Assembly: GCA_016187925.1 (NCBI GenBank)
Contig: JACPIS010000039.1
Coordinates: forward strand, 124,001-188,000
Length of the DNA stretch: 64,000 bases
Direction: 5' to 3'
DNA from: Opitutia bacterium
GTDB taxonomy: Bacteria > Verrucomicrobiota > Verrucomicrobiia > Opitutales > Opitutaceae
This document shows positions 11,067 to 58,873 of this stretch, piece by piece. A model generated the notes under the pieces. It did not search any database, was not told the origin of the DNA, and worked only from the letters and a program-made list of their open reading frames with translations. Both the position numbers and the translations under genes were made by a program. Within the stretch, counting starts at the first letter, position 1; each line of letters starts with the position of its first letter.

Positions 11067-11278
11067 GGCACGCCAACCGTAGCCGGGCGAGAGGCTTTCG
11101 CAAGAGGTGCGAAAAAAGAAAAACCCCCAGGCCGACATGGTGTGTGCCGCCGGGTTCCGTTTCATACGGAAATTTTTCCCCGGAACTTTGCGCGCCGCTC
11201 CGTGTTCATTGAGCCCGTCGGCGCGCGTTGTCTCGCGACAGCCCGCGCCGGCAACCAAGCAAAAAAAGACAAACTCGC

Positions 11279-11926
11279 ATGAAAAACGTTACATCGTTCA
11301 AGACTCTCATTCTGGCCGGCGCGGTTGCGCTCGGCTTCGCCACTGCGGCGGTCGCCGGTGAAGGCCCCGCGGAGGCTTCCGCTCCGGCGGTCACAGGCCG
11401 CGGCCTCCTCGGCCAAAGCTACGTGAACCTCGGTTACAGCTTCGTGGACCTGCAGGGCACGGGGATCGACGCCCAGGGCGTCAACTTCGAGCTCAACCAG
11501 AACGTCCGCGAGGGCGTCGATACGCTGCTCTCGTACAACTACCTCCGCTCCGATTCGTTCGCCGGCGGCCGCATCAAGCAAAACACGCTCGTGGCCGGCG
11601 GACGTTTCTACACTTCGTTCCGCGGGTTCAAGCCCTACGCCGAGGCCGGCCTCGGCTGGACCTGGCTGCGCGCGCCGCTCGGTTTCAGTGACGACTCCTT
11701 CACCTACTTCGCGGGAGTCGGCGCCGAATTCCAGGTCACGCCCGACGTCACGGTCACGCCGTTCATCCGCTACATCGACGCCACGACCGACAGCGTCGAC
11801 CACGAGTGGAACTACGGCGTCCGCGCCAACTGGTGGGCGACGGAGAAGATCGGCCTCACCGCCGCCGTGATCCGCGACAACTCGCGGAACATGGAATACA
11901 ACATCGGCGTGAACTACCGCTTCTAA
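11279..11926 (+). CDS. Outer-membrane beta-barrel protein (paralogue 1)
   Basis: 215 residues from MKNVTSFKTLILAGAVALGF; signal peptide cleaved near AVAGE. Alternating aromatic and hydrophobic strands (SYVNLGYSFVDLQ, FKPYAEAGLGWTWLRA, YFAGVGAEFQVT, EYNIGVNYRF) with a terminal Phe, typical of an 8-stranded OmpA-like barrel. About half the residues recur in the next gene, so this is a tandem duplication. A strong intrinsic terminator follows. Confidence 0.85.
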   Translation: MKNVTSFKTLILAGAVALGFATAAVAGEGPAEASAPAVTGRGLLGQSYVNLGYSFVDLQGTGIDAQGVNFELNQNVREGVDTLLSYNYLRSDSFAGGRIKQNTLVAGGRFYTSFRGFKPYAEAGLGWTWLRAPLGFSDDSFTYFAGVGAEFQVTPDVTVTPFIRYIDATTDSVDHEWNYGVRANWWATEKIGLTAAVIRDNSRNMEYNIGVNYRF

Positions 11927-11956
11927 GCGCAAAAAATTCTGTTCGGTAAATTGCGA

Positions 11957-11989
11957 GCCGCGGCGTGTGCAGACGCCGCGGCTTTTTTT
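11957..11989 (+). terminator. Intrinsic terminator after first barrel gene
   Basis: Perfect 10-bp stem GCCGCGGCGT / ACGCCGCGGC with a 6-base loop, followed by seven T. Confidence 0.93.
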
Positions 11990-12171
11990 GCGCGGGTCCA
12001 AACCGCGCGGGGGCCGAAAGGCGAAGACGAAAGCCGTTGCGCCGCGCCGGGGAGAAATTCCTTTTCGCCAGCCCTGCGGGAACGGTCGCGTGGGGCGGAC
12101 GGGAAGGGGCGGGTTCAGCTCCGCTTCGCCGCCAACTCCGCCCGACCGGAACCGTTTTCGCCAACACAACT

Positions 12172-12810
12172 ATGAAGCAATCACATCAGTTCACGAAACT
12201 CCTCCTGGCCGCGGCGCTCGCGCTCGGCTTCGCCACCGCCGCGCTCCACGCGGCCGAAAACACCGCCCCGGCCGGTCTGCTCGGCCAGCGCTATGCCACG
12301 GCCGGTTTTGGGATCATCGATCTCGGTGACTCGTCGCTCGACGTGCACAGTTACCGTCTCGCCTACAATCAGGATGTCGCGGCCGGCGTCGACGCCCGGC
12401 TCGAACTCGATTATCTGCGCTCCCAGCCGACCAACAGCGTGCTCTACGGACACCAGCGCTACACGGACCGCAACGCGGTGATCGGCGCGCGCGCTTTCAC
12501 GCGACGCGGCACGGTGACGCCTTACGCCGAGCTGGGCGCGGGTTGGACGTGGTTCAAGCTCGCAGACTGGCGCGAGGACTCGTTCCTGTGGTTCGCCGGG
12601 GTCGGCGCGGAATTCGCGGTGAACGGGAGCTTCGTCGTCGCGCCCTATGTCCGCTACACGGACCGGGTCGATCTCTTCCGCGGCCACAGCTGGAATTATG
12701 GTATGCGCGCAAACTACGCGCTGACCGCCCAGCTCGCGCTCACCGCGACGCTCGACCGCGACGACGATCAGGACATGGAGTATCAGCTCGGTCTGGCCTG
12801 GCGTTTCTGA
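12172..12810 (+). CDS. Outer-membrane beta-barrel protein (paralogue 2)
   Basis: 212 residues from MKQSHQFTKLLLAAALALGF, signal peptide ending near ALHAAE. Same plan as the upstream gene: GLLGQRYATAGFGIIDLGD, VTPYAELGAGWTWFKL, WFAGVGAEFAVN, EYQLGLAWRF. The block GLLGQ...Y...G is shared. Separated from paralogue 1 by a terminator, so each has its own promoter. Function unknown; possibly a structural outer-membrane protein. Confidence 0.83.
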   Translation: MKQSHQFTKLLLAAALALGFATAALHAAENTAPAGLLGQRYATAGFGIIDLGDSSLDVHSYRLAYNQDVAAGVDARLELDYLRSQPTNSVLYGHQRYTDRNAVIGARAFTRRGTVTPYAELGAGWTWFKLADWREDSFLWFAGVGAEFAVNGSFVVAPYVRYTDRVDLFRGHSWNYGMRANYALTAQLALTATLDRDDDQDMEYQLGLAWRF

Positions 12811-12932: not shown

Positions 12933-13463
12933 ATGGCCGCCACCCGCCGCACCTTCTACCAGAGTTTAGAACTCACCATCGGGCTGGGCGCGCTGGCGGG
13001 CGCCGGACTGGCGTGGTTTTTCCCGGTGCGGACCGTCGCGGTCGAGCCGGTGGATTTTCTGCGCTACGCGGGCCTGGCGCTGCTGCTGCAGGGTTTCGTG
13101 CGCGACTTGGTGCTGCTGGCGTTTTACCGGAAGGAACTCGCGGCGACGGACGACGCGCCCCGTGCGGGTGCGTGGATCTGCCTCGAATCGACGCTGGGGC
13201 TCGGGCTCATCGCACTCTCGGCGCTGTTCGCGGTCTTCGAGGTGCGCGGCGCGCTGCTGCTCTCGACGCGGTGCCTCGCCCTGCTCGGCGCGCTGTGGTG
13301 GCTCTTCGGCTATGCGACGCGCGACTACGTCATCGAGCTGCGCAAGGAGACCAACCACCTGAACCTGCTCGTGCGTTTCCGGCCGGCGGCAAAACCGAGT
13401 TTGGAGGCGGAGCCATCAGCCCCTCAGGCGGTCCGCGAAATCGGTGAGGAAGTGCGGAGCTGA
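12933..13463 (+). CDS. Membrane protein of unknown function
   Basis: 176 residues. Four hydrophobic segments: LELTIGLGALAGAGLAWFFP, YAGLALLLQGFVRDLVLLAF, TLGLGLIALSALFAVFEV, LALLGALWWLFGYAT. Cytoplasmic-looking basic tail with ETNHLNLLVRFRP. No family recognised. Start supported by the immediate hydrophobic N-terminus. Alone on its strand; convergent with the ligase cluster. Confidence 0.75.
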   Translation: MAATRRTFYQSLELTIGLGALAGAGLAWFFPVRTVAVEPVDFLRYAGLALLLQGFVRDLVLLAFYRKELAATDDAPRAGAWICLESTLGLGLIALSALFAVFEVRGALLLSTRCLALLGALWWLFGYATRDYVIELRKETNHLNLLVRFRPAAKPSLEAEPSAPQAVREIGEEVRS

Positions 13464-13538
13464 CGGCTCCGCCGCCAAGGGGAATGTCATATAATAGATG
13501 ACACTTTCCTCGCGTCCGGTTCTCGTGCGACGTGAGGC

Positions 13539-14804
13539 TCACACCGCCGGGTGGAAGCCTGCGCTGGCGCCGACCCAGGTTTTGCCTTTGTTGAAGTCGA
13601 CGCCGTGCATCGCGCCCTTGGTGAGGCGCACGAGGTTGTTGACGAGCCGTGGCATGCCGTCGCCGTCGCCGGCGAAGATGAGCCGCACTTCGGCCTTGGC
13701 CGGGCCGTCAGGCGTCTCGAGCACGGGTGAGTAGACGACCTTGCGCTGCAGCAGCCACTCGGCGGGTTTTTCCAGCGCGGCGATCTTGTCGCGCGTGGGC
13801 GCGATGTCGACGCCGAGCCCGGCGAACGAGTAGAGCGGCTTGAGCACGTAGTTCTCCAGATCGGCGGGAAGCAGGAGGTTTTTGTCGGGGGATGAACCCC
13901 CTCCCACAGCAAAGTCGGACACGAAGCGGCACTCGGGCACGTAGGGGCTGCGGAGGAACGGCAGCGTGTGCTTGCTGATGCGGTAATACCAATTGGGGTG
14001 GCCGGCCCATTGCACGTCGAGGTCGTCGGCGAAGTTGAACTTCATCGGCGGATTCTTGCGCAGCAGCTCGTCGAAGATCACGCGGTTGAAGATGCGGTGG
14101 ATCGGCACCTCGCGTCCGCCGGAGAAGTAGAACAGCTGCCGGCCGCGCTTCACGACCTTGGTCACGCACATCGGACGGACGCCGAGCAGCGCGTGCGTGC
14201 AGGCGAAGTCGATGCGCGTCTTCTGCTCGCCGGGCGCGATCTCGAGCAGCACCGTGTTCTCCGGCAGACAGTCGCCGACCAGGGCGGTGCGCAGCGCGGC
14301 GAGGTAGCCTTCCTCGTCGAGCCCGCCGAAGTAAGGAGTGAACTCGGCCGGGATGCCCGGGAAGTGCTTGCGGTAGGAGTTGGTGAGCAGCACCTGCCAG
14401 CACGCGACCGTCGGGAAACCCTGCAGCTCGATCAGCTGCGGCCTAATTTTGCCGGCGTCGTCGCGGCAGAGCGCGAAGTCGACGCACAGGAAGTGGGGCC
14501 ACGGCGTCTCGGCCGGGACCTCGAGGGACGAAAGCCCTTCGACAAGCTCCGGGCGCGCGCCCCCGAAGGCGCGCGGGATGGCCGTCTGGGCGTGCGTGCG
14601 AAATTCGGGCTGCGCCAGCTGGCGCGTGATGTCCTCGGAAGCTTTCACCAACTCCCGGGTCGTCTCCTCGTCGAGGAACAGCGGCGACTCCGCCACGCGG
14701 AAATCCACCGGCCAGTACATCGCTTGGTTCAGCTCGCGCAGAAACGCCGCATAGCGTTCGTCGGTGAACGCGGCATTGTAGCGCTGGCGGAGGGCGGGGA
14801 TCAT
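13539..14804 (-). CDS. ATP-grasp-like protein of unknown substrate
   Basis: 421 residues. Reads like a family widespread in Bacteroidetes and Verrucomicrobia: PQLIELQGFPTVACWQVLL, KTRIDFACTHALLGVRPMCV, HPNWYYRISKHTLPFL, then the probable nucleotide-binding block ENYVLKPLYSFAGLGVDI and EWLLQRKVVYSPVLET, ending MHGVDFNKGKTWVGASAGF. The order suggests a circularly permuted ATP-grasp fold, as in glutathionylspermidine synthase; this is inference from motif style. Residues about 82-95 (ARPELVEGLSS) are a repeat-derived insertion. Last gene of the minus-strand ligase cluster. Confidence 0.65.
   Translation of the reverse strand: MIPALRQRYNAAFTDERYAAFLRELNQAMYWPVDFRVAESPLFLDEETTRELVKASEDITRQLAQPEFRTHAQTAIPRAFGGARPELVEGLSSLEVPAETPWPHFLCVDFALCRDDAGKIRPQLIELQGFPTVACWQVLLTNSYRKHFPGIPAEFTPYFGGLDEEGYLAALRTALVGDCLPENTVLLEIAPGEQKTRIDFACTHALLGVRPMCVTKVVKRGRQLFYFSGGREVPIHRIFNRVIFDELLRKNPPMKFNFADDLDVQWAGHPNWYYRISKHTLPFLRSPYVPECRFVSDFAVGGGSSPDKNLLLPADLENYVLKPLYSFAGLGVDIAPTRDKIAALEKPAEWLLQRKVVYSPVLETPDGPAKAEVRLIFAGDGDGMPRLVNNLVRLTKGAMHGVDFNKGKTWVGASAGFHPAV
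14534..14553. repeat. Palindromic repeat inserted in frame within a gene
   Basis: CCCTTCGACAAGCTCCGGGC inside the ATP-grasp-like gene, translated as part of RPELVEG. A related unit occurs in frame in cstA at 35382-35404. Such units are known as dispersed intergenic palindromes in many genomes. Confidence 0.75.
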
Positions 14805-14826
14805 GCGGTGGGTGGACGTTTTATTT

Positions 14827-14883
14827 GACCACGGATTTCAGGGTGAATCAGCTTATCCGTATTCATCCGTGAAATCCGTGGTC
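14827..14883. repeat. Inverted repeat between ligase-cluster genes
   Basis: Arms GACCACGGATTTCA and TGAAATCCGTGGTC, 14 bp perfect, in the 108-base gap between the peptidase and the ATP-grasp-like gene. AT-rich for this genome. No T-run in the reading direction, so a repeat or processing hairpin rather than a terminator. Confidence 0.8.
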
Positions 14884-14912
14884 AAAAAAACGCGTTCGCT
14901 CGCGGCACAACT

Positions 14913-15950
14913 TCAGATCAGGAACTTCCCCTTCGCCATCACCTGTTCGTCGTCGAGCCAGATGTCGAAAAAACGGCCGACGCAGTCGATGTGGGTGGTG
15001 CTCTTCCAGGGCTGGCCGGTGTGCTCGGAGTAGGGGTGGCCGAAGGCGATGTGGATGCCGGGGAGCTTCTCGTCCTGCAGGATGTGGCCGATGATGTGCG
15101 TGCAGGCGAGGTTGGTGCCGATGGCGAACTCGCCGATGCGGTCCGAGTTCTCGTCCGTGTGGCAATACCGGTCGAACTCCTCGAGCAGCTCCTTGTTCGC
15201 GCACGACAGCCCGGCGATGCGGTTGTCCTTGATGTCGATGGTCAGCGGCGTCCGCCCGATGTCGCCGTATTTCTGGCAGAGATAATCGCCGACGACACCA
15301 TCGACGACGAAGCGGCCGTTCGAATTGAAGGGCGAGGTGAAGATCTCGCCGCCGGGCAGGTTGCCCCATTTTTCGGGCGTGATGAGGCCGGAGGTTTTGA
15401 CCCACTTGAGCGTCGGCGAAAGTTCGGCGACGTAGTCGGTGCCGGCGGCGGTCCGGCAGGTGACGCGTTTCGCGCGGCGGCATTTCTCGATGAGCTTCTG
15501 CGAGAGCGCGTCGACGGCGAGGAAGTCCGCGCACATGCCTTCGAGCATGATCTGCTGGTTGATGTTGACCATGTGCCCGTGGCGGATGCGGTGCGGGTTG
15601 ATGACATCCATCATCTGCATGCGGGTGCGGAGCTCGCCGGTCTGGGTGATGCAGGCGTAGAGGCTGACCTGCGAGCGGGCGAGGTCGTCGAGGATGGCGC
15701 GCGGCATGTCGCGGTGCGGGCGCGGGCCGTAGTCCTCGAGGAGGAAAACGTGGTAGGGCGCGCCGGTCTTCTCGACCTCGGCGACGAGCGCGGCGGCGAT
15801 CTCGGCGCAGGCCCGGTCGGCGATGATGGTCATGCGCTCGTGCGACTGCAGCCGCAGGCAGACGTGGATGGCGTTGGCCGCGCCGCGCGCGAGGGCGGGA
15901 TCGAAGGTGGCGGGCAGCGAGGTGGCAGGAGGCATGGCGGAGGTGGGCAT
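14913..15950 (-). CDS. M29-type aminopeptidase
   Basis: 345 residues. Metallopeptidase family M29 (aminopeptidase T/S), a two-metal exopeptidase. Seen: NLPGGEIFTSP near residue 200 (first metal glutamate), DENSDRIGEFAIGTN near 270 (second glutamate), and HIAFGHPYSEHTG followed by THIDCV, which hold the remaining ligands and the tyrosine. Family length is about 400, so this is slightly short at the N-terminus. Placement within the ligase cluster suggests hydrolysis or trimming of a cluster product, an inference. Confidence 0.85.
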   Translation of the reverse strand: MPTSAMPPATSLPATFDPALARGAANAIHVCLRLQSHERMTIIADRACAEIAAALVAEVEKTGAPYHVFLLEDYGPRPHRDMPRAILDDLARSQVSLYACITQTGELRTRMQMMDVINPHRIRHGHMVNINQQIMLEGMCADFLAVDALSQKLIEKCRRAKRVTCRTAAGTDYVAELSPTLKWVKTSGLITPEKWGNLPGGEIFTSPFNSNGRFVVDGVVGDYLCQKYGDIGRTPLTIDIKDNRIAGLSCANKELLEEFDRYCHTDENSDRIGEFAIGTNLACTHIIGHILQDEKLPGIHIAFGHPYSEHTGQPWKSTTHIDCVGRFFDIWLDDEQVMAKGKFLI

Positions 15951-16000
15951 CAGGAGAGGAGGTGATCGAGGAAAGGCGGGAGGCGGGCAGCGGGCTACTT

Positions 16001-16089
16001 GTCACCCTGAGCGCAGCGAAGGGTCCACGGATTCGGCCTCGGCGCGACGTTCGGCGGGCATGGATTCTTCGCTGCGCTCAGAATGACAG
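16001..16089. repeat. Dispersed palindromic repeat, copy 1
   Basis: Outer arms CACCCTGAGCGCAGCGAAGG and its near complement ending CGCTGCGCTCAGAATGAC, about 85 bases in all. A second copy is at 37987-38074. Resembles short palindromic elements common in several phyla. Confidence 0.85.
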
Positions 16090-16122
16090 GGGCTGGGCAT
16101 GGGTTGATTGTCCGATCGGCCC

Positions 16123-17244
16123 TTACAGCTCAAGGCCGTGATGGGTTTCGGAGATGATATAGTCGACGACGGCCTTGAGGTCCTTGGTGCGATGGTAAAC
16201 CTCAACCTGCCGGTCGGCGCCGGTGCCCTGGCGCAGGATCTGGTGGACGTAGTCGATCTCCTCGCGCGAGCCGAGGTCATCCACCACGTCGTCGATGAAC
16301 TCGAGCAGTTCGCCGATGAGCGCGCGGGTCTCGACCTCCTCCTGCTTGCCGAAATCGATCATCTTGCCGCTGATGCCGTAGCGGGAGGCGCGCCAGCGGT
16401 TTTCCGCGAGGAGGCGGCTGCGGTAGATGCGGTAACCCATGTTCTGCCGGTAGAGCTGGTACAACTTGGCGATGACGGCCTGCATGACGGCGGCGAGGCA
16501 GATGGTCTCGTCGACGCGCATCGGGATGTCGCACACGCGGAACTCCAGCGTGTGGAAAAGCGGGTGCAGGCGGATGTCCCACCAGATCTTCTTCGCGTTG
16601 TCGATGCACCCGGTCTTGATGAGGAGGTTGACGTATTCGTCGTGCTCGCCGACGGAGTCGAAGGCGTCTGGGATGCCGGTGCGCGGGAAGCGTTGGAAGA
16701 CCTGCAGGCGGTAGCTCTTGAAGCCGGTGTCGCGGCCGACCCAGAACGGCGAGTTGGTCGAGAGCGCAAAGATGTGCGGCAGGAAATACCGCGCGGTGTT
16801 CATCAGCTGGATGGCCGTCTCGCGGTCGGGCATGCCCACGTGGACGTGGAGGCCGAAGATGAGGTTGGCGCGGGCGATCTGCTGGAGGTCCTGCAGGACG
16901 ACCTGGTAGCGATCGCCCTTGGAAATTTTCTGGTCGATCCAGTGGGAAAACGGGTGCGTGCCGGCGGCGGCGATGCGGAGGTTGGACTTCATCGCCAATC
17001 GCGCGAGGTCGGTGCGGAGCGAGGTGACGTTGCGGCGGGCGCACTGCACGTCCTCGCAGATGTCGGTGCCGACCTCGACGACCGACTGGTGCAGCTCGGG
17101 CTTCACGCGCTCCTTGAGGATGACCTTGCCGCCCTCGAGCATCTCCTCGATGTGCGACTTGAGCTCGCGCGAGACGGGGTCGACGATCTGGAACTCCTCC
17201 TCGATGCCGAGGGTGAAGCGGTGCTTTTTCTTGGCGGCGCACAT
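16123..17244 (-). CDS. Carboxylate-amine ligase, GCS2/YbdK type
   Basis: 373 residues from MCAAKKKHRFTLGIEEEFQ. Glutamate-cysteine ligase family 2: GIEEEFQIVDP at the N-terminus (metal-binding glutamates), FGLHVHVGMPDRETAIQL near residue 135, RLHPLFHTLEFRVCDIPMRV near 235, ENRWRASRYGISGKMID near 290. The family joins glutamate to an amine or cysteine using ATP. Upstream frame extension rejected because the IEEE motif must sit near the start. Follows the ATP-grasp gene by 109 bases containing a palindromic repeat. Confidence 0.92.
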   Translation of the reverse strand: MCAAKKKHRFTLGIEEEFQIVDPVSRELKSHIEEMLEGGKVILKERVKPELHQSVVEVGTDICEDVQCARRNVTSLRTDLARLAMKSNLRIAAAGTHPFSHWIDQKISKGDRYQVVLQDLQQIARANLIFGLHVHVGMPDRETAIQLMNTARYFLPHIFALSTNSPFWVGRDTGFKSYRLQVFQRFPRTGIPDAFDSVGEHDEYVNLLIKTGCIDNAKKIWWDIRLHPLFHTLEFRVCDIPMRVDETICLAAVMQAVIAKLYQLYRQNMGYRIYRSRLLAENRWRASRYGISGKMIDFGKQEEVETRALIGELLEFIDDVVDDLGSREEIDYVHQILRQGTGADRQVEVYHRTKDLKAVVDYIISETHHGLEL

Positions 17245-17287
17245 GGTGGGGAGCGGGGTTGAGGGGCGTGGGAAGAGCGGGCGGGCT

Positions 17288-17338
17288 GGAGGGCTCAGCT
17301 CCGGCTGAGCCGCGGCCCGCCGGGAGGCGGGCCCTCCA
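17288..17338. repeat. Two adjacent palindromes between ligase genes
   Basis: GCTCAGCTCCGGCTGAGC followed by GGCCCGCCGGGAGGCGGGCC. The first relates to the GGCTCAGCAGGAGCTGAGCC units at 34.3, 34.6 and 44.4 kb. Confidence 0.75.
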
Positions 17339-17353
17339 AGGCGGAAACGAGGT

Positions 17354-18334
17354 TCATTTTTTCTTCGCCGGGGCGGGGGCGGTGATGGCGGCGCCGCTGG
17401 CGCCGGCCTGCACGTATTTGCCCCAGGTAAGGTTGTCCTGACCGGGTTTGTGCTCCTTGGCGCGGCGGACGAGCATCTGCGCGGCGGCCTCGACGACCCA
17501 CGCAAAGTTTTCCTCGCCGACAGATTTCCGGTCGGCGTCGGGTGCGGGGTTGCAGAAGTCGATCGCGTAGGGCACGCCGCCGCTCACGCCGAACTCGACG
17601 GTGTTGAAGTCGTAGCCGAGCGCCTGGTTGAGCGTGAGCACGTCGCGCCGCACGCGCTCGAGCAGCGCGGGGGCCGGGGCGGGGCGGTCGACGACATAGC
17701 GCAGGTGGTGCGGGTTGCGCGGCTCGTAGGGCATGATGCGGACGTCGGTGCCGCCGATGCAGTAGCAGCGGAAGTAATCGTCGAACTGCACCTCGGACTG
17801 GAGGAGCATGACGAGCTGGCCGGTCTCGCCGTAGGCCTTGAAGAACTCGTCGGGGTTGCGGACCTTGTAGACGTTTTTCCAGCCGCCGCCGGAGTGCGGC
17901 TTGAAGTACGCGGGCCAGCCGATGTAGGCGAAGATGCCGTCCCAATCGAGGGGGAACGCGAGGTTGCTGAACGACTCCGCGGTGCAGTCGGCCGGGTGGT
18001 CCTTCGAGGGGAGGATGACGGTGTTGGGCACGGCGACGCCGAGCTTCGTGGCGAGGCAGTTGTTGAAGAACTTCTCGTCGGCGGACCACCAGAACGGGTT
18101 GTTGACGACGGCGGTGCCGTTGAGCGCGGCGTTCTTCAGGTAGGCGCGGTAGAACGGCACGTCCTGCGAGATGCGGTCGAGGATGACGGCGTAGGCGGTG
18201 GCCTCGCCCTGCGCGACCCGGTTGATGTTCACCGGCTCGGCCGTGATGCCGGGCTCGTTGAGGGCATTGATGTGCTCGATGAGCGCCTGCGGGAAGCTGC
18301 GTTCCTTGCCGTGGAGAATGCCGATTTTTTTCAT
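17354..18334 (-). CDS. ATP-grasp ligase (RimK-like)
   Basis: 326 residues. N-terminal nucleotide-fold start MKKIGILHGKERSFPQALIE; ATP-grasp core with YFKPHSGGGWKNVYKV (glycine-rich lid, near residue 145), QLVMLLQSEVQFDDYFRCY, and YDFNTVEFGVSGGVPYAIDFCNP (metal site ending in the Asp and Asn). Joins a carboxylate to an amine through an acyl phosphate. Starts 12 bases after the esterase gene. Ends in an Ala/Pro/Lys tail. Substrates unknown; the neighbouring GCS2 ligase suggests a glutamyl peptide. Confidence 0.85.
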   Translation of the reverse strand: MKKIGILHGKERSFPQALIEHINALNEPGITAEPVNINRVAQGEATAYAVILDRISQDVPFYRAYLKNAALNGTAVVNNPFWWSADEKFFNNCLATKLGVAVPNTVILPSKDHPADCTAESFSNLAFPLDWDGIFAYIGWPAYFKPHSGGGWKNVYKVRNPDEFFKAYGETGQLVMLLQSEVQFDDYFRCYCIGGTDVRIMPYEPRNPHHLRYVVDRPAPAPALLERVRRDVLTLNQALGYDFNTVEFGVSGGVPYAIDFCNPAPDADRKSVGEENFAWVVEAAAQMLVRRAKEHKPGQDNLTWGKYVQAGASGAAITAPAPAKKK

Positions 18335-18346
18335 GGGGGAGCGGGA

Positions 18347-19069
18347 TTAGGAATGGATGAGGGAGAGGTAGTGCGGGAACATGTCGCGCCAGTAGTTCCA
18401 GTCGTGGCCGCACCACTTGCGGTCGTCGAGGAAATGCGGGATGCCGCGGGCGTTGAGCATGCCGGAGAAATGCAGGTTGCGGTCGCGGCAGGTGTCGCGG
18501 TCGCCCGTGCCGAGGACGATGCCCATGTGGCGCAGGTGGCCGAGGAACCACGGGTCGTTGAGGTTCGGCACGTAGTCGACCGGGTTGTTGAAGTAGACGT
18601 TGTCGTCGTAATAGCCGTCGAGGAACGAGCGCACGTCGAACGAGCCGCTCAGGCTGACGCAGTAGCCGGTGAGGTCGGGATGGCGGAAGGCGAAGTTCAC
18701 CGCGTGGTAGCCGCCGAAGCTCGCGCCGGCCATCGCCACGCGGCCGTGGCCGGTCTCGGCCTGGGCGCGCGCGACCACGTCGTGCAGGATGACTTTCTCG
18801 TAGGCCATGTGCGTCTTCACGCGGTCGGCCGGGTGGACGGACTTGTTGTACCAGCTCTGCTCGTCGATGCCGTCGGGGCAGTAGATCTTCACCTGGCCGG
18901 CGTCGACGAGGTGCGCGACCGAGCCGACGAGCCCGAAGTCCTTGTTCTGCGAAAAACGCCCCAGCGAGGTTGGAAACAGGACGACCGGATAACCCGCGTG
19001 TCCGAAGACCAGCATCTCGAAATCCCTGCTCAGGTGCGGTGTGTACCAGCGGACGTATTGCTCGTTCAT
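18347..19069 (-). CDS. Alpha/beta-hydrolase esterase
   Basis: 240 residues from MNEQYVRWYTPHLSRDFEML; an upstream in-frame Met is less likely. Esterase-D-like fold with nucleophile elbow GASFGGYHAV near residue 115 and a C-terminal HDWNYWRDMFPHYL holding the histidine. No signal peptide, so cytoplasmic. First gene of the five-gene minus-strand locus (esterase, ATP-grasp, GCS2 ligase, peptidase, ATP-grasp-like). Confidence 0.87.
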   Translation of the reverse strand: MNEQYVRWYTPHLSRDFEMLVFGHAGYPVVLFPTSLGRFSQNKDFGLVGSVAHLVDAGQVKIYCPDGIDEQSWYNKSVHPADRVKTHMAYEKVILHDVVARAQAETGHGRVAMAGASFGGYHAVNFAFRHPDLTGYCVSLSGSFDVRSFLDGYYDDNVYFNNPVDYVPNLNDPWFLGHLRHMGIVLGTGDRDTCRDRNLHFSGMLNARGIPHFLDDRKWCGHDWNYWRDMFPHYLSLIHS

Positions 19070-19206
19070 GCGGGGGAGGACTCGGGCCGGAGCAGGCGGT
19101 GTGCCGCCAAGACATACAAGGCCCGGGTTCCGGGGCAAGCCGCGTCCGTCACGGTTGGAAAAACCGCTTGGCTTCGCCCCGGCTGCGCCCTACCACCGCC
19201 CGCCAC

Positions 19207-20019
19207 ATGACCCGCCGTCCCGCCAACCCGAAAGCCGCCCCGCTGCGCCTGCACCGGCGCTTCCACTCGCGCGTGCTCCGCAACTGCCGCGACGTCGTCG
19301 TGTGGCTCCCGCCCGGCTACGGCCTGGCCCGGCGCCGCCACCCGGTCGTCTATTTTCAGGACGGGCAGAACATCTTCGATCCGCTCACCGCGTTCCTCGG
19401 CCAGGCCTGGCACGCCGGCGAGCGCGCCGCCGAGCTCATCCGGGAGCGCCGCATCGTCGCGCCGATCATGGTTGGCGTCTACAACACCGGCTTCAACCGC
19501 ATGAACGAGTACGCGCCCACGCGCGCGGAGTTCACCGGCTGGGACGGCGAGAAGTGCCGGAGCCAGGGCGACGCCAAGCGCTACGCGCGCTTCTTCACGC
19601 AGGAGCTGGTCCCGTTCATCGACGCCCATTACCTCACGCTCACCGGCCCGCGGCACACCTCCGTCGTCGGCTCGTCGATGGGCGGGCTCGTGTCGCTCTA
19701 CTTCGCGTTGTGGCATCCGCGCGTGTTCGGCCGCGTCGCCGCGCTGTCGCCCTCGCTGTGGTGGGACAACCGCGTCGTGCTGCAGGATTTCGCCCGGCTC
19801 CCGAAAAAGTCCGACGTGCGGCTCTGGCTCGACATGGGCACGGCTGAGCCGGGCTGGGAGGTCGTGCAGCTGTTCCGCGACAACCTCGTCGGCCGCGGCT
19901 GGGCGCAGGGCGGCGACCTCGAGTACCGCGAGATTCCCGGCGGCCAGCACAACGAAGCCGCCTGGGCCGCGCGCATCGGCGACGTGCTGGAGTGGATGCT
20001 CGGCCGGGAGCAGAGGTAG
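19207..20019 (+). CDS. Alpha/beta-hydrolase esterase, divergent partner
   Basis: 270 residues from MTRRPANPKAAPLRLHRRF. Esterase family with VVYFQDGQNIFDP (oxyanion region), nucleophile elbow VVGSSMGGLVSLY near residue 158, and C-terminal GGQHNEAAWAARIGDVLEWM with the histidine. Divergent from the first esterase with 137 bases between. Likely part of the same locus. Confidence 0.88.
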   Translation: MTRRPANPKAAPLRLHRRFHSRVLRNCRDVVVWLPPGYGLARRRHPVVYFQDGQNIFDPLTAFLGQAWHAGERAAELIRERRIVAPIMVGVYNTGFNRMNEYAPTRAEFTGWDGEKCRSQGDAKRYARFFTQELVPFIDAHYLTLTGPRHTSVVGSSMGGLVSLYFALWHPRVFGRVAALSPSLWWDNRVVLQDFARLPKKSDVRLWLDMGTAEPGWEVVQLFRDNLVGRGWAQGGDLEYREIPGGQHNEAAWAARIGDVLEWMLGREQR

Positions 20020-20060
20020 CCGGCGAATCGGCAGATTCACGGAACGGGCGTTCCGCGTTG

Positions 20061-20139
20061 TAGGGCGGGGTCGCCGGACCCCGCCGTATGTTGCGTAGCG
20101 TATGTCACATTCGCGGCGGGGTCAGCGACCCCGCCCTAC
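20061..20139. repeat. REP pair downstream of RAYT
   Basis: Two GGCGGGGTC...GACCCCGCC palindromes at 20061-20085 and 20113-20139, in opposite orientation as judged by the flanking TAGG/CCTA. They bracket one side of the RAYT gene. Confidence 0.88.
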
Positions 20140-20202
20140 AAAAGCCAGCGTGAAGCGTGGGAGAAAATTTTCGTCGGGGGGCCTTGGAGGAAAATTTCTT
20201 GG

Positions 20203-20676
20203 CTAGAAACCCAGCTTCTCGCACTCGCCGGAATACGGCCAGGTATCGGCGTCGTCGACGAATCCGGCGCGCACCGGGTTCTGGCGCACATAGTCCCATT
20301 TTTCTGAATAGCTCTTTGGGGAACGCAGGACGTGGTCGAAAAACTCCGGCTGCCAAACGGGCGGCGCGACCTGCCGGGTAGTAATGATCTGCCGGGCAGT
20401 CCACTTCTTCCAATCGCGCATGAAGGCGCTGAGCGATTTAGCGTCGGGTTCCGGAGCGGCAAAGAAGTGCACGTGATCCGGCATGATGACATAGCGCCCA
20501 ATCACCCAACCATGCACGTTCATAGAGTCGCGCCAAGAGCTGGTCAGGACTCCGGCAATTGGCGCGCCGACCAGAATCGGGCGACGCCGGTGCGTACAGA
20601 CGGTCAAAAAATACAGAGGATATTTGATCCACACATCGCGCAGGCGGCGCAGGTGTTCGCGATCTGGTTGGGGCAT
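20203..20676 (-). CDS. REP-associated tyrosine transposase (RAYT)
   Basis: 157 residues from MPQPDREHLRRLRDVW. Y1 transposase of the IS200-like type: FLTVCTHRRRPIL near the start, the HUH element VIMPDHVHFFAAP near residue 70, and the tyrosine-bearing block SYSEKWDYVRQNPVRAGFV near 125. Domesticated relatives process and spread REP hairpins. Palindromes of one family flank it on both sides (20061-20139 and 20782-20809) and recur through the window, which fits a REPtron. The frame is intact, so it may be active. Confidence 0.9.
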   Translation of the reverse strand: MPQPDREHLRRLRDVWIKYPLYFLTVCTHRRRPILVGAPIAGVLTSSWRDSMNVHGWVIGRYVIMPDHVHFFAAPEPDAKSLSAFMRDWKKWTARQIITTRQVAPPVWQPEFFDHVLRSPKSYSEKWDYVRQNPVRAGFVDDADTWPYSGECEKLGF

Positions 20677-20781
20677 GGAAGTGGGTGGCCCAACCCGGGT
20701 GCAGGGTTTTCGAATCAGATATGTCCGACAAGCGAATTGTTGTCGGGTGGGGTCGCTGGGTTGAGTAGCGCATGCCACATT

Positions 20782-20809
20782 GCGGCGGGGTCAGCGACCC
20801 CGCCCTACA
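20782..20809. repeat. REP copy upstream of RAYT
   Basis: GGCGGGGTCAGCGACCCCGC followed by CCTAC, identical core to the copy at 20113-20139. Confidence 0.88.
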
Positions 20810-20821
20810 ACGGCACAAAAC

Positions 20822-38547: not shown

Positions 38548-38624
38548 GTCCCCATCGTCTAGCCCGGTCAGGACACCACCCTTTCACGGTGAGAACCGGG
38601 GTTCGAATCCCCGTGGGGACGCCA
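38548..38624 (+). tRNA. tRNA-Glu (TTC), canonical
   Basis: Acceptor GTCCCCA / TGGGGAC, G73 and encoded CCA. Anticodon TTC at 38583-38585 in loop CTTTCAC. D-loop contains GG, T-loop TTCGAAT: the normal elbow. This is the internal reference against which the array tRNAs at 56-59.5 kb are abnormal. An integrase fragment follows 73 bases later. Confidence 0.96.
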
Positions 38625-55929: not shown

Positions 55930-56005
55930 CGCCTTGTCGTCTAAGATGAGAGGATGCCGGTCTTTCAAGCCGGTGATGCGGGTGCGAATCCCGTCGAGGC
56001 GGCCA
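55930..56005 (+). tRNA. tRNA-Glu (TTC), array member 1
   Basis: Acceptor CGCCTTG / CGAGGCG, G73, CCA encoded. Anticodon TTC at 55964-55966 in loop CTTTCAA. T-loop TGCGAAT (G55). D-loop has AG but no GG. Same anticodon and G73 as the canonical copy at 38.5 kb. Confidence 0.88.
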
Positions 56006-56111
56006 TTTCCTATAGGAAACGCCGGTTGTTGATCCGAAACCGGAGTTCGTTTCTGCCCCATCGGATCTTTACTGGAGCTTGCCGGCAGCCCGAGCCGGCA
56101 GGGGCTAATTT
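56006..56111. other. Structured spacer 1 in the array
   Basis: Hairpins CCGGTT...AACCGG, GATCCGA...TCGGATC and TGCCGGCAGCCCGAGCCGGCA. No tRNA found. Longest gap but one in the array. Confidence 0.5.
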
Positions 56112-56185
56112 GCGCGCGTGGCGTAGGAGCAACGCGGCGGTCTGCCAGTCCGCAGTCCCGGGTGCGATTCCCGGCGCGCGCACCA
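56112..56185 (+). tRNA. tRNA-Gly (GCC), array member 2
   Basis: Acceptor GCGCGCG / CGCGCGC, A73, CCA. Anticodon GCC at 56144-56146. T31-T39 mismatch closes the anticodon loop. T-loop TGCGATT, D-loop AGGAGCA. Confidence 0.85.
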
Positions 56186-56186
56186 T

Positions 56187-56263
56187 GGAGCTGTGGTGTC
56201 AACAGTCAGCACAGCGGACTTTTAATCCGTAGAGTGCGGGTGCAACTCCCGCCGGCTCCACCA
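56187..56263 (+). tRNA. tRNA-Lys (TTT), array member 3
   Basis: Acceptor GGAGCTG / CGGCTCC, A73, CCA. Anticodon TTT at 56221-56223, loop CTTTTAA. T-loop TGCAACT, D-loop CAACAGTCA. One base after member 2. Confidence 0.9.
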
Positions 56264-56346
56264 TTTTGCCACCAGTCAGTCATCGAGGGCGGTCGCAGGA
56301 GAAATCTTCCTGCGCCGAGCGACCTGGAACTGCTGGCGGTGGCTTT
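56264..56346. other. Structured spacer 2 in the array
   Basis: Outer pairing GCCACC...GGTGGC, inner GGTCGC...GCGACC and GCAGGA...TCCTGC: a long branched hairpin, not a tRNA. Confidence 0.5.
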
Positions 56347-56421
56347 CGCGCGTTGGGAGAGGAGTCATCCGGCAGTCCGCAAAACTGTCCCACGTCGGTG
56401 CAAATCCGGCACGCGCGTCCA
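56347..56421 (+). tRNA. tRNA-Cys (GCA), array member 4
   Basis: Acceptor CGCGCGT / ACGCGCG, T73 (the cysteine discriminator), CCA. Anticodon GCA at 56379-56381. Position 33 is C, not T. T-loop TGCAAAT. Confidence 0.87.
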
Positions 56422-56430
56422 TTTTCAATT

Positions 56431-56505
56431 GGGGCTGTGATGATAATAGCAGCATGCCGCGCCCGCAACGCGGATGAGACGGAGCGTAACCGTCCAGCTC
56501 CACCA
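56431..56505 (+). tRNA. tRNA-Ala (CGC), array member 5
   Basis: Acceptor GGGGCTG / CAGCTCC with the alanine identity pair G3-U70, A73, CCA. Anticodon CGC at 56464-56466, C33. T-loop AGCGTAA, where A54 faces T58 instead of T54-A58. Confidence 0.88.
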
Positions 56506-56510
56506 ATTTT

Positions 56511-56585
56511 GCCCGGGAGGTGTTGATAGATGCACGACTGCCTTCCAAGCAGACGGAGCCGGCGCGATACCGGCCCCGGGCACCA
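56511..56585 (+). tRNA. tRNA-Gly (TCC), array member 6
   Basis: Acceptor GCCCGGG / CCCGGGC, A73, CCA. Anticodon TCC at 56544-56546, loop CTTCCAA. T-loop CGCGATA (C54, G55), D-loop TGATAGAT. Confidence 0.87.
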
Positions 56586-56586
56586 C

Positions 56587-56661
56587 AGGCCCTAGATGTC
56601 CAAGCGGACGGGTTGGTCTCCAAATCCGACCGGGAGGGTGCGAGTCCCTCAGGGCCTGCCA
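56587..56661 (+). tRNA. tRNA-Trp (CCA), array member 7
   Basis: Acceptor AGGCCCT / AGGGCCT, G73 as expected for Trp, CCA. Anticodon CCA at 56620-56622. T31-T39 mismatch with compensating extension of the anticodon stem. D-arm can close to a 4-base loop AAGC. T-loop TGCGAGT. Confidence 0.85.
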
Positions 56662-56668
56662 ATTTAAC

Positions 56669-56744
56669 GGAGGTTAGGCCGATCTAGTGATGGCGCGTGG
56701 CCGAAGACCACGAGAGCGCGGCGCGAAACCGCGAGCCTCCACCA
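56669..56744 (+). tRNA. tRNA-Phe (GAA), array member 8
   Basis: Acceptor GGAGGTT / AGCCTCC, A73, CCA. Anticodon GAA at 56703-56705, C33, loop CCGAAGA. T-loop CGCGAAA. D-loop ATCTAGTGA. Confidence 0.87.
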
Positions 56745-56750
56745 TTTCAT

Positions 56751-56823
56751 AGCAGGAAGCGGACAGTTCCGCCTCCGGTCTCATAAGCCGGTTCTTTCCG
56801 TGCAACTCGGAATCCTGCTCCCA
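56751..56823 (+). tRNA. tRNA with CAT anticodon (Met or Ile2), array member 9
   Basis: Acceptor AGCAGGA / TCCTGCT, C73, CCA. Anticodon CAT at 56782-56784. No G-C triplet in the anticodon stem and a paired 1-72, so not an initiator. D-arm 4 bp with loop CAGT. T-loop TGCAACT. Confidence 0.82.
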
Positions 56824-56830
56824 CTTTCAT

Positions 56831-56906
56831 CGGAGCGTAGCGTAGTAGCTAACGCGCTCGGCTTGGGACCGAGAGATCGCAGGTGCAACTCCTGTCGCTC
56901 CGACCA
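56831..56906 (+). tRNA. tRNA-Pro (TGG), array member 10
   Basis: Acceptor CGGAGCG / CGCTCCG, A73, CCA. Anticodon TGG at 56864-56866, loop CTTGGGA. T-loop TGCAACT, D-loop AGTAGCTA. Only Pro tRNA found. Confidence 0.9.
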
Positions 56907-56913
56907 TTTTTGT

Positions 56914-56989
56914 CAGGTGTGTGGCCCAGTTAGCGGGGCACCGGTCTGTGACGCCGGGGAAATGGGTGCAAATCCCATCCACCTGACCA
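56914..56989 (+). tRNA. tRNA-His (GTG), array member 11
   Basis: Anticodon GTG at 56948-56950, loop CTGTGAC. In register the acceptor is CAGGTGT / CCACCTG with A73 and CCA, so the usual extra G-1 opposite C73 is lacking; an 8-bp reading GTCAGGTG / CACCTGAC is possible but would spoil CCA. T-loop TGCAAAT. Confidence 0.8.
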
Positions 56990-56994
56990 CTTTT

Positions 56995-57071
56995 GCTCGT
57001 GGAGATGAAGGAGTCGAATCAGCCCTCTGTCGAAGGGAAGTCAGTCGGTGCGAGTCCGATCACGAGCGCCA
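56995..57071 (+). tRNA. tRNA-Asp (GTC), array member 12
   Basis: Acceptor GCTCGTG / CACGAGC, G73 (Asp discriminator), CCA. Anticodon GTC at 57029-57031. T-loop TGCGAGT, D-loop AAGGAGTCG. Confidence 0.88.
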
Positions 57072-57075
57072 TTTT

Positions 57076-57150
57076 GGGCGGGTCGTCCAACAGTCAGGAC
57101 CCCTCTCCTACACAGAGGAGATCACGGTGCGAATCCGTGCCCGCCCACCA
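57076..57150 (+). tRNA. tRNA-Val (TAC), array member 13
   Basis: Acceptor GGGCGGG / CCCGCCC, A73, CCA. Anticodon TAC at 57109-57111 with C33 (loop CCTACAC). T-loop TGCGAAT, D-loop AACAGTCA. Confidence 0.88.
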
Positions 57151-57151
57151 T

Positions 57152-57226
57152 TGTCAGGTAGCTCAATAGTCGAGCGGCCGATTGTTAATCGGTAAGATGC
57201 AGGTGCGAGTCCTGCCCTGACAGCCA
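57152..57226 (+). tRNA. tRNA-Asn (GTT), array member 14
   Basis: Acceptor TGTCAGG / CCTGACA, G73 (Asn discriminator), CCA. Anticodon GTT at 57184-57186. T-loop TGCGAGT, D-loop AATAGTC. Confidence 0.9.
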
Positions 57227-57230
57227 ATTT

Positions 57231-57305
57231 CGTCGGCGAGTAAGCCAGTGACTATGCCTGCCCGACATGCAGGAGGGCCGGGTGCGACTCCCGGGCCGAC
57301 GACCA
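57231..57305 (+). tRNA. tRNA-Val (GAC), array member 15
   Basis: Acceptor CGTCGGC / GCCGACG, A73, CCA. Anticodon GAC at 57264-57266, C33. T-loop TGCGACT, D-loop GCCAGTGA with a weak D-stem. Confidence 0.85.
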
Positions 57306-57310
57306 TTTAT

Positions 57311-57384
57311 TGCGGTGTCGTCTAACAGCAGGACAACGGGTTTTGAACCCGTGAATGGAGGTGCGAGTCCTCCTGCCGCAGCCA
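57311..57384 (+). tRNA. tRNA-Gln (TTG), array member 16
   Basis: Acceptor TGCGGTG / TGCCGCA, G73 (Gln discriminator), CCA. Anticodon TTG at 57343-57345, loop TTTTGAA. T-loop TGCGAGT, D-loop AACAGCA. Confidence 0.9.
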
Positions 57385-57387
57385 AAC

Positions 57388-57466
57388 GGGGCCTGGGACT
57401 GCCTAGCGTGGTCGTCTCCCTGGCAGGGAGAAATTCAGGCGGGTGCGACTCCCGCAGGCTCCACCA
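57388..57466 (+). tRNA. tRNA-Ala (GGC), array member 17
   Basis: Acceptor GGGGCCT / AGGCTCC with G3-U70, A73, CCA. Anticodon GGC at 57422-57424. Seven-base variable region. T-loop TGCGACT. The second alanine tRNA that keeps the synthetase's key wobble pair. Confidence 0.88.
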
Positions 57467-57473
57467 CTTTCAT

Positions 57474-57548
57474 GGGTCGCAAGCATTAACAGTGATGCCG
57501 CCGGTTCTTACCCGGCAGAACCCGGAGCGTTACCGGGGCGGCCCACCA
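57474..57548 (+). tRNA. tRNA-Lys (CTT), array member 18
   Basis: Acceptor GGGTCGC / GCGGCCC, A73, CCA. Anticodon CTT at 57507-57509, loop TTCTTAC. T-loop AGCGTTA (A54-T58). D-loop TAACAGTG. Confidence 0.88.
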
Positions 57549-57551
57549 TTT

Positions 57552-57627
57552 GGCTCAGTGGCGCAGCAGTCAGCGCAGCTCCCTCATAAGGAGAAGGTCG
57601 CGGGTGCGAATCCCGCCTGAGCCCCCA
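57552..57627 (+). tRNA. tRNA-Met (CAT), array member 19
   Basis: Acceptor GGCTCAG / CTGAGCC, C73, CCA. Anticodon CAT at 57585-57587, loop CTCATAA. Elongator type. T-loop TGCGAAT, D-loop AGCAGTCA. Both CAT tRNAs in the array share C73. Confidence 0.87.
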
Positions 57628-57631
57628 TTTT

Positions 57632-57718
57632 CGAGGCGTGGCAGAGCAGCAATTGCAGCGCGCTGTAAACGCGCCGCCCTCACGGGCTGCGGAGGTGCAA
57701 GTCCTTCCGCCTCGACCA
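57632..57718 (+). tRNA. tRNA-Tyr (GTA), array member 20
   Basis: Acceptor CGAGGCG / CGCCTCG, A73, CCA. Anticodon GTA at 57665-57667, loop CTGTAAA. Long variable arm GCCCTCACGGGC, as bacterial tRNA-Tyr should have. T-loop TGCAAGT. Confidence 0.9.
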
Positions 57719-57725
57719 GTTTTAT

Positions 57726-57800
57726 TCCGGCAAAGCGTAGGTAGCGACGTATCCCAGTGGTATTGGGAAGAGCGGAGCGCAACTCTCCGTGCCGGATCCA
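57726..57800 (+). tRNA. tRNA-Thr (GGT), array member 21
   Basis: Acceptor TCCGGCA / TGCCGGA, T73, CCA. Anticodon GGT at 57759-57761. T-loop CGCAACT. All three Thr tRNAs in the array have T73. Confidence 0.88.
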
Positions 57801-57806
57801 TTTTGT

Positions 57807-57893
57807 GCGGACGTGGCGGAACTAGCAGACGCGCCGGCCCGAGAAGCCGTCGGGCGCAAGCCCGTGAGGGTGCAACTCCCTCCGCCCGCACCA
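57807..57893 (+). tRNA. tRNA-Leu (GAG), array member 22
   Basis: Type II with variable arm CGGGCGCAAGCCCG. Acceptor GCGGACG / CGCCCGC (one A-C mismatch), A73 (Leu discriminator), CCA. Anticodon GAG at 57841-57843, C33. T-loop TGCAACT. Confidence 0.87.
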
Positions 57894-57900
57894 CTTTTAT

Positions 57901-57989
57901 CGCGGCGTGGTTGGAACAGCAGACACGGCGGGCTTAAACCCCGTTGGACCTTCCGGTCCGTGCCGGTGCAACCCCGGCCGCCGCGACCA
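57901..57989 (+). tRNA. tRNA-Leu (TAA), array member 23
   Basis: Acceptor CGCGGCG / CGCCGCG, A73, CCA. Anticodon TAA at 57935-57937. Long variable arm GGACCTTCCGGTCC. T-loop TGCAACC. Confidence 0.9.
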
Positions 57990-57994
57990 AACAT

Positions 57995-58083
57995 GCGGCC
58001 GTGCGTGGAACAGTAGACCGGGCGGTTTCAAAAACCGCCGCGCCTCACGGCGCGTGGGCGTGCAAGTCGCCCCGGCCGCACCA
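57995..58083 (+). tRNA. tRNA-Leu (CAA), array member 24
   Basis: Acceptor GCGGCCG / CGGCCGC, A73, CCA. Anticodon CAA at 58029-58031. Variable arm GCGCCTCACGGCGC. T-loop TGCAAGT. Confidence 0.9.
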
Positions 58084-58089
58084 ATTTAT

Positions 58090-58174
58090 CGACGGGTGGT
58101 GGAACGAATACACGCGAGTCTCAGAAACTCGTGGGCGAAAGCCCGTGCAGGTGCGAATCCTGTCCCGTCGACCA
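58090..58174 (+). tRNA. tRNA-Leu (CAG), array member 25
   Basis: Acceptor CGACGGG / CCCGTCG, A73, CCA. Anticodon CAG at 58122-58124, loop CTCAGAA. Variable arm GGGCGAAAGCCC. T-loop TGCGAAT. The D-loop (ACGAATACA) is the one in the array without AG. Confidence 0.89.
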
Positions 58175-58181
58175 TTTGGCT

Positions 58182-58258
58182 CGCTGACGCTCGGCGCCTC
58201 GCGCCAGCCCTGCGGGCTGCCCATCTCCGCACGATCACAGGATCGTGCTCCGTCAGCG
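58182..58258 (+). other. Cloverleaf-like four-way junction between tRNAs
   Basis: Closing stem CGCTGACG / CGTCAGCG; three hairpins inside: GGCGC-CTC-GCGCC, AGCCC-TGC-GGGCT and GCACGATC-ACAG-GATCGTGC. All loops are 3-4 bases, so there is no anticodon loop. The right end overlaps the Glu tRNA by two bases. A tRNA-shaped element that cannot be a normal tRNA. Confidence 0.7.
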
Positions 58259-58331
58259 CTTCGTCCTCTAGCCAGTAGGAGACCCGTCTCTCAAGCGGGC
58301 AACGCGGGTGCAAATCCCGTCGGAGCGACCA
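58257..58331 (+). tRNA. tRNA-Glu (CTC), array member 26
   Basis: Acceptor CGCTTCG / CGGAGCG, A73, CCA. Anticodon CTC at 58290-58292, loop CTCTCAA. T-loop TGCAAAT, D-loop AGCCAGTA. Confidence 0.88.
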
Positions 58332-58336
58332 TTTGT

Positions 58337-58428
58337 TGCCGCGTAGTTCAAAGTGAACCGTCCGCCTTATACACGGAATCGCGCTAGATGAGCGCCAGGC
58401 CCGGGAGCGTTACCCGGCGCGGCAACCA
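58337..58428 (+). tRNA. Type II tRNA with TAT anticodon, array member 27
   Basis: Acceptor TGCCGCG / CGCGGCA, A73, CCA. Loop CTTATAC gives anticodon TAT at 58368-58370 (Ile, ATA codon) with a C31-A39 mismatch. It also has a long variable arm GCGCTAGATGAGCGC, normal for Leu, Ser or Tyr but not Ile. D-loop only AAAGT. T-loop AGCGTTA. Identity uncertain. Confidence 0.7.
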
Positions 58429-58429
58429 T

Positions 58430-58868: not shown

Positions 58869-58873
58869 CTTTC

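Follow-up and report, generated by a model that had tools for sequence, protein, structure and literature searches.

What could be made by a compact group of genes in which three putative amide-forming ligases stand beside a peptidase-like hydrolase and two esterases? Such a group occupies positions 13539-20019 of a 64,000-nucleotide stretch (the window) of an Opitutaceae genome, contig JACPIS010000039.1 of the Opitutia bacterium assembly GCA_016187925.1 (positions 124,001 to 188,000 of the forward strand). The locus probably represents a variant of a widespread and conserved small-molecule pathway in which ATP-dependent ligases link building blocks one after another through amide bonds. In favor of a shared amide-forming pathway, the genes co-occur across phyla, even when they are unlinked.

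Five of the genes lie on the minus strand, in the transcription order EST1 (alpha/beta-hydrolase, 240 amino acids, 18347-19069), ATPG (ATP-grasp ligase of RimK/LysX-like fold, 326 amino acids, 17354-18334), GCS2 (carboxylate-amine ligase of the PRK13515 group, 373 amino acids, 16123-17244), an M29-type metallohydrolase (345 amino acids, 14913-15950) and H421 (ATP-grasp ligase of glutathione-synthetase/glutathionylspermidine-synthetase/YgiC fold, 421 amino acids, 13539-14804). EST2, another alpha/beta-hydrolase (270 amino acids, 19207-20019), is divergent on the plus strand, so the six genes do not form one operon. All six reading frames are intact and separated, from 13539 to 20019, by gaps of 108, 172, 109, 12 and 137 bp; a scan of 13400-20200 for sigma-70-type promoters was uninformative, with no site found against 0.4 expected. 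The sequence-only reading of this DNA had named a GCS2 ligase, an ATP-grasp ligase, a second ATP-grasp-like protein, an M29 peptidase and two esterases, a gene set that is borne out by protein families and predicted folds. Imperfect inverted repeats are present in two of the gaps, one of 28 nt between the M29-type and GCS2 genes (16000-16088) and one of 24 nt between H421 and the M29-type gene (14820-14890); the core of the former has three copies in the window, against 0.01 expected by chance.

The gene set is not specific to this genome. ATPG is present in 12 of 95 related genomes, and H421 in those same 12. The 11 of these other than the window's own genome all harbor ATPG, GCS2, M29, H421 and EST2, and eight of them EST1. 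Their flanking genes (DUF4139, SDR, UvrC and Prx) are also partly syntenic; therefore, gene order within the family alone proves little, and the six genes might be unrelated neighbors held together by general Opitutaceae synteny. This is highly improbable, as the same set recurs without those flanks in Bacteroidota, Ignavibacteriota, other Verrucomicrobiota and a metagenome-assembled genome (MAG) titled Acidobacteriota, and the ligases are found in the same genomes even where they are not linked. When GTDB contigs were scanned with ATPG, at least 542 relatives were returned, from which the best 80 loci by ATPG similarity were kept. Their titles include Chitinophagaceae, Cyclobacteriaceae, Mucilaginibacter, Ignavibacteriota and Verrucomicrobiota, as well as a Thermoanaerobaculum MAG (Acidobacteriota) and a MAG titled Alphaproteobacteria. 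GCS2 lies at most 3.2 kb downstream of ATPG in 73 of these 80 loci by tblastn (72 by clustering), and four of the seven others end within 0.8 kb downstream of ATPG. The EST2 family is found in 60 of the 80, divergent from ATPG, followed by H421 (33), EST1 (28), a glutamine-amidotransferase-like protein designated GAT1 (22) and M29 (9). Two cultured species, Mucilaginibacter pankratovii (L122) and Arcicella rosea (L057), carry EST2, EST1, ATPG, GCS2, GAT1 and H421 together in a single stretch. A large TonB-receptor-like gene lies near ATPG in 24 of the 80 loci (including L058, L059, L105 and L117) and is apparently a lineage-specific neighbor. Most genomes whose ATPG locus lacks H421 have this gene at another site: of the 47 such loci, 43 were checked (L075, L110, L111 and L118 were left out), and H421 was recovered in 36 of the 43 (once as a fragment), or in 40 of 47 including four positive controls.

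The same association was observed in a single fixed set of 198 Bacteroidota genomes, in which GCS2 was counted when a PRK13515-type protein scored over the cut-off. ATPG is present in 71 of these genomes, H421 in 59, GCS2 in 60 and all three ligases in 53. ATPG and H421 occur together in 57 genomes, ATPG without H421 in 14, H421 without ATPG in two, and neither in 125. The pairing follows ATPG similarity: H421 is present in 56 of 56 genomes with an ATPG match of E <1e-137, and in one of 15 with a weaker match. GCS2 accompanies ATPG in 57 of the 71. The sequence-only reading was to be given up if the genes did not co-occur in other genomes; they do, across phyla and even when unlinked, and because of this we regard the locus as more than a chance grouping.

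GCS2 is the member with the clearest family assignment (PF04107, 211.7 bits against a cut-off of 21; NCBIfam PRK13515/NF010039, 539 bits against 371), and it matches YbdK (1r8g; phmmer E 4e-47). Its sequence G13-I14-E15-E16-E17, in which the glycine and the three glutamates are invariant in 69 of 69 sequences, conforms to the GhExE active-site signature given for GCS2-like ligases in excerpts of PMC2588565. Both esterases belong to PF00756 (cut-off 22), EST1 with 39.3 bits and residues S117, D192 and H222 invariant in 27 sequences, EST2 with 114.5 bits and a phmmer match to the IroE-like hydrolase 3gff (E 5e-17). In the EST2 family (59 sequences), S157 is invariant and H248 is present in at least 95%. 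The profile scans of GCS2, EST1 and EST2 used slightly longer frames.

Scans against curated families gave no Pfam or NCBIfam match for H421. An AlphaFold model built on an alignment of 33 sequences has a mean predicted local distance difference test score (pLDDT) of 89.5 and matches 21 structure entries with Z 21.3-25.1 over 314-371 residues, spanning residues 1-421. The best structural match is YgiC (VIA-align, Z 25.1, root-mean-square deviation (rmsd) 3.5, 342 residues), followed by YjfC (Z 24.7 over 345 residues) and human glutathione synthetase (Z 23.4); glutathionylspermidine synthetase and the fungal ligase Cp1B (9cjn, Z 21.3) are also matched. This predicted fold, like that of glutathione and glutathionylspermidine synthetases and YgiC, shows that the label "second ATP-grasp-like protein" was right for H421 despite the lack of a curated-family match. 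Although YgiC and YjfC of E. coli are the top matches, identity to them is 12-13%, and the Pfam family GSP_synth (PF03738) has no match in the window protein and one among the 33 H421 homologs (E 0.017). Residues D109, E126, Q128, K322, E372 and R374 are invariant in the 33 sequences. According to the sections of PMC12568646 consulted, Cp1B requires R139, D141, E163 and N165; by comparison of motifs rather than structures, D109, E126 and Q128 of H421 would match D141, E163 and N165, although H421 has a glutamine where the reported E-x-N motif of Cp1B has asparagine.

Locus L010, one of 12, has a stop in its frame and was omitted from the alignments. The window H421 carries at residues ~78-91 (14520-14580) a 14-residue insertion with RPELVEG, absent from the 11 other aligned homologs. 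The DNA of this insertion resembles a repetitive extragenic palindromic (REP)-type element, of which a close core copy occurs elsewhere in the window only with three mismatches. In one Bacteroidota genome (G530, L197 5636-8236), a sodium:solute symporter (PF00474) and, fused behind it, H421 share one frame of 867 amino acids, and in another (G538, L199 6792-9368) a symporter gene lies directly upstream of H421. This arrangement hints at an imported solute as H421 substrate.

ATPG, likewise, has no Pfam match, and its NCBIfam match to rimK_fam TIGR00768 is sub-threshold (16.7 bits against a cut-off of 143.4). Its AlphaFold model (37 aligned sequences, mean pLDDT 88.9) is most similar to RimK (Z 21.5, rmsd 2.8, 261 residues) and LysX (Z 19.3), with ArgX also matched. 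The fold is thus that of the RimK/LysX/ArgX ligases (Z 18-21.5), whereas identity to them is 12-18%, and ATPG appears from its motifs to carry D-F-C-N-P-A-P-D where ATP-grasp ligases usually have E-x-N, the motif given in the consulted part of PMC4431377. Residues K88, K145, E247, D259 and N262 are invariant in 81 sequences. We also considered a placement in the R2K clade, whose members, according to the same source as far as consulted, have lost a lysine that sits between the pre-ATP-grasp and RAGNYA domains. Pfam R2K_2 gives weak matches in 22 of 37 ATPG family members (best E 0.0023); judged from motifs, K88 occupies that position, and all 81 of 81 sequences have it, so that ATPG retains the lysine whose loss defines the clade.

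RimK modifies ribosomal protein S6, and LysX and ArgX work on a carrier protein. As these are among the closest folds of ATPG, the ligases might tag a protein, peptide or lipid rather than make a free metabolite. We consider this quite unlikely: no evident carrier or precursor was seen among the 30 most widespread neighbor families, represented by one member each and by open reading frames of at least 90 amino acids, a limit that a short precursor could escape, and a small imported substrate would fit better with the symporter that is fused to H421 in one genome and precedes it in another.

The position of the M29-type protein varies among lineages. In the window this protein matches PF02073 (49.9 bits, cut-off 27) over residues 160-310 only; as candidate metal ligands, E202, E274 and H300 align opposite the E, E and H of the aminopeptidase AmpS, and H320 and D322, outside the AmpS match, are invariant and align with NicX. 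In other lineages the position is taken by GAT1, or by an amidohydrolase upstream of H421. GAT1 scores 34.6 and 39.4 bits with PF00117 (cut-off 22.8) in two members, and its Cys-His-Glu triad (C115, H218 and E220 in L052 numbering) is invariant in 22 sequences; such a triad is also found in MetA-type acyltransferases. Among the 33 loci with H421, nine carry M29, 21 GAT1 and three neither, and the genomes of these three have GAT1 elsewhere. The two types are mutually exclusive in all 17 M29-type genomes but for a single 33-bit match (this check took 10 of the 12 carriers in the Opitutaceae family, G008 and G058 being left out), and they co-occur in none of the 198 Bacteroidota. M29 of the cassette type (E <1e-100) is present in two of the 198, both times beside H421, and 35 more have distant M29 relatives only. 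GAT1 is present in 49, always with ATPG or H421, and adjoins H421 in 22 of 27 non-control loci with unlinked H421 (flanks of at most 1.5 kb on each side). In a tree of H421, from which the truncated L081 was excluded, M29 and GAT1 types separate with two label changes, which is the minimum (shuffled mean 11.5). Because every one of the 20 GAT1 rows of this tree comes from Bacteroidota, the effect of hydrolase type is in part inseparable from that of ancestry; M29-type loci are found in Verrucomicrobiota, Ignavibacteriota, an Acidobacteriota MAG and one Bacteroidota MAG.

Of the 57 Bacteroidota genomes that combine ATPG with H421, 18 have neither an M29-type nor a GAT1 protein. Two of these (G406 and G411) have ATPG, GCS2 and H421 side by side; in the other 16, ATPG and H421 lie far from each other or on separate contigs. 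The surroundings of H421 were examined in all 18, and in eight an Amidohydro_3 gene of the same orientation adjoins or overlaps the upstream side of H421, as it does in a genome with H421 and no ATPG match (L179). Three of these proteins were scanned (PF07969, 276-313 bits, cut-off 29.7), and the other five share 45-51% identity with one of them. Two GAT1-type loci (L052 and L091) also carry a more distant amidohydrolase (28-29% identical); the amidohydrolase family is therefore not exclusive. The 18 also include the two genomes with a symporter at H421 (G530 and G538), and no common partner was seen around H421 in the remaining eight.

The presence upstream of H421 of an amide-hydrolase-like gene from one of three unrelated families suggests another role for the glutamyl group, namely a temporary protecting or carrier group that GCS2 would add, on which ATPG and H421 would act, and that M29, GAT1 or the amidohydrolase would remove last. 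A precedent is that another GCS2-like family adjoins a glutamine amidotransferase (GATase)-like thiol peptidase or a gamma-glutamyl cyclotransferase (PMC2588565, in the part consulted). We find this scheme unlikely, given that no hydrolase of the three families was seen in 10 of the 57 Bacteroidota genomes that contain both ATPG and H421, although another enzyme could act in them.

Part of the variation concerns GCS2 itself. Among the 14 ATPG genomes without GCS2, seven have ATPG and GAT1 without H421, four have ATPG, H421 and GAT1, and three have ATPG alone. The regions of the 14 Bacteroidota genomes with ATPG and without H421 were examined, and a circularly permuted type-2 ATP-grasp protein (PF14403, over the cut-off in three of four proteins scanned) forms a cluster with members from 11 loci. 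In seven clear loci of this diverged variant its gene adjoins ATPG in the place of GCS2 and is followed by GAT1 and an EST2-like gene; in the gene-order display of the 11, the center gene was missed in L168 and L178, and antisense reading frames blur L171 and L176. GCS2 is encoded elsewhere in four of the 11 genomes that have ATPG and GAT1 and lack H421.

Several observations weigh against the reading as a pathway of successive ligases. EST1 is often absent, GCS2 is lacking in 14 of the 71 Bacteroidota genomes with ATPG, and the ten genomes just mentioned have ATPG and H421 with no M29 or GAT1 anywhere and no amidohydrolase beside the ligases. The association of ATPG with H421 in Bacteroidota (Fisher p ~1e-33) is uncorrected for common descent. 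Besides AmpS, the M29 protein can be aligned with the dioxygenase NicX (E 2e-4), and the nearest solved sequence to GAT1 is the homoserine O-succinyltransferase MetA (E 8e-4), so that either may do something other than hydrolysis. Finally, H421 appears to have no evident counterpart to the arginine located ahead of the conserved acidic residue of Cp1B, again judged from motifs and not from structure.

Returning to successive amide bond formation, substrates, order of steps and product can be proposed from the enzyme families. GCS2 enzymes form gamma-glutamyl amides, which an enzyme of the glutathione-synthetase fold extends and to which a RimK-like ligase adds another residue. GCS2 would phosphorylate the gamma-carboxylate of glutamate and join an amine to it, giving gamma-Glu-X. 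H421, whose predicted fold is that of the enzyme extending gamma-Glu-Cys in glutathione synthesis, would activate the free carboxylate of gamma-Glu-X and add a second amine; its substrates may include, in some bacteria, a small solute taken up from outside. ATPG, the most constant member, would make a further amide bond. The M29-type protein, replaced elsewhere by GAT1 or the amidohydrolase, may serve in trimming, deprotection or turnover by cleaving an amide. EST1 and EST2, as serine esterases, may remove ester or thioester groups. The simplest reading would be a gamma-glutamyl compound built from three or four units, trimmed or recycled by the amide hydrolase and the esterases. The sequence-only reading had expected a small peptide or amide metabolite of glutamyl type; the amide-forming pathway is upheld by co-occurrence, while "glutamyl" derives only from the membership of GCS2 in its family; a glutamyl product is likely, although GCS2 is usual rather than universal in genomes with ATPG.

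Linked amide ligases are a kind of system that is already known, and this gene set represents a variant of it. Surveys propose that such linked genes make peptide metabolites stepwise (consulted parts of PMC4431377 and PMC2588565). The locus resembles glutathione and glutathionylspermidine biosynthesis in pairing a GCS-type ligase with a ligase of the eukaryotic glutathione-synthetase/glutathionylspermidine-synthetase fold; unlike those pathways, it adds a RimK-like ligase, M29 or GAT1 and esterases, and H421 is 8-15% identical to the corresponding structures. The fungal E-64 pathway (Cp1B and Cp1D) also builds a small amide with two successive ligases, of which Cp1B is matched by H421, but it is fungal and starts from epoxysuccinate, and in its text, as far as consulted and under the terms searched, GCS2 and glutathione synthetase are not named (PMC12568646). 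A pair predicted in 2008, a GCS2-like protein with a GATase-like thiol peptidase, similarly couples an amide ligase with a GATase-like hydrolase and was proposed as a source of glutathione-like peptides; it involves a different GCS2-like family in proteobacteria and firmicutes, and ATPG and H421 are not described in the sections consulted (PMC2588565). No description of the present gene set was found in the literature searched; the 2009 survey of amidoligases and ATP-grasp enzymes (Iyer et al., Mol BioSyst), which lay outside that search, may list it.

Three further possibilities were examined and set aside. BshC (PF10079) is present in 196 of the 198 Bacteroidota genomes, hence the pathway is not a bacillithiol replacement in this phylum; a second thiol is neither favored nor disfavored. 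Anti-phage defense found no support in PADLOC, which gave no family at E 0.01 for seven proteins (the six of the locus and one GAT1), and carriage on plasmids found none among 72,556 plasmid records at E 1e-20.

Elsewhere in the window, two adjacent related small proteins at 11228-12810 have the look, from their sequence, of outer-membrane beta-barrels; among the loci of the 11 related genomes, five have similar proteins close to H421. On the other side of the locus, an IS200-like Y1 transposase (20203-20778; PF01797, 33.8 bits) has inverted repeats on either side (20058-20141 and 20739-20811) with CAGCGACCCCGCCCTACAA in common, and together they probably represent a REP-associated tyrosine transposase with its REPs. 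A cluster of 22 tRNA genes lies on the plus strand at 55930-59394, and a 23rd, for tRNA-Glu, at 38548-38624.

Approximately one third of the Bacteroidota sample (71 of 198) carries the core ligase ATPG, and the 63-71% identity between the window ATPG and the non-Opitutaceae members of the best 80 loci represents strong conservation between phyla for an enzyme to which neither Pfam nor NCBIfam assigns a family. Tentatively, the product might be a so far unrecognized but widely used gamma-glutamyl cofactor or protective metabolite, analogous in outline to glutathione, in Bacteroidota, Ignavibacteriota and some Verrucomicrobiota and Acidobacteriota, with lineage versions arising by exchange of the hydrolase and of GCS2 for the permuted ATP-grasp; this broader proposal is possible rather than probable. 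The co-occurrence of three ligases, together with the exchange of unrelated hydrolases at one position, makes the metabolite a tractable target, and once identified in one species the product could be predicted in hundreds of genomes.

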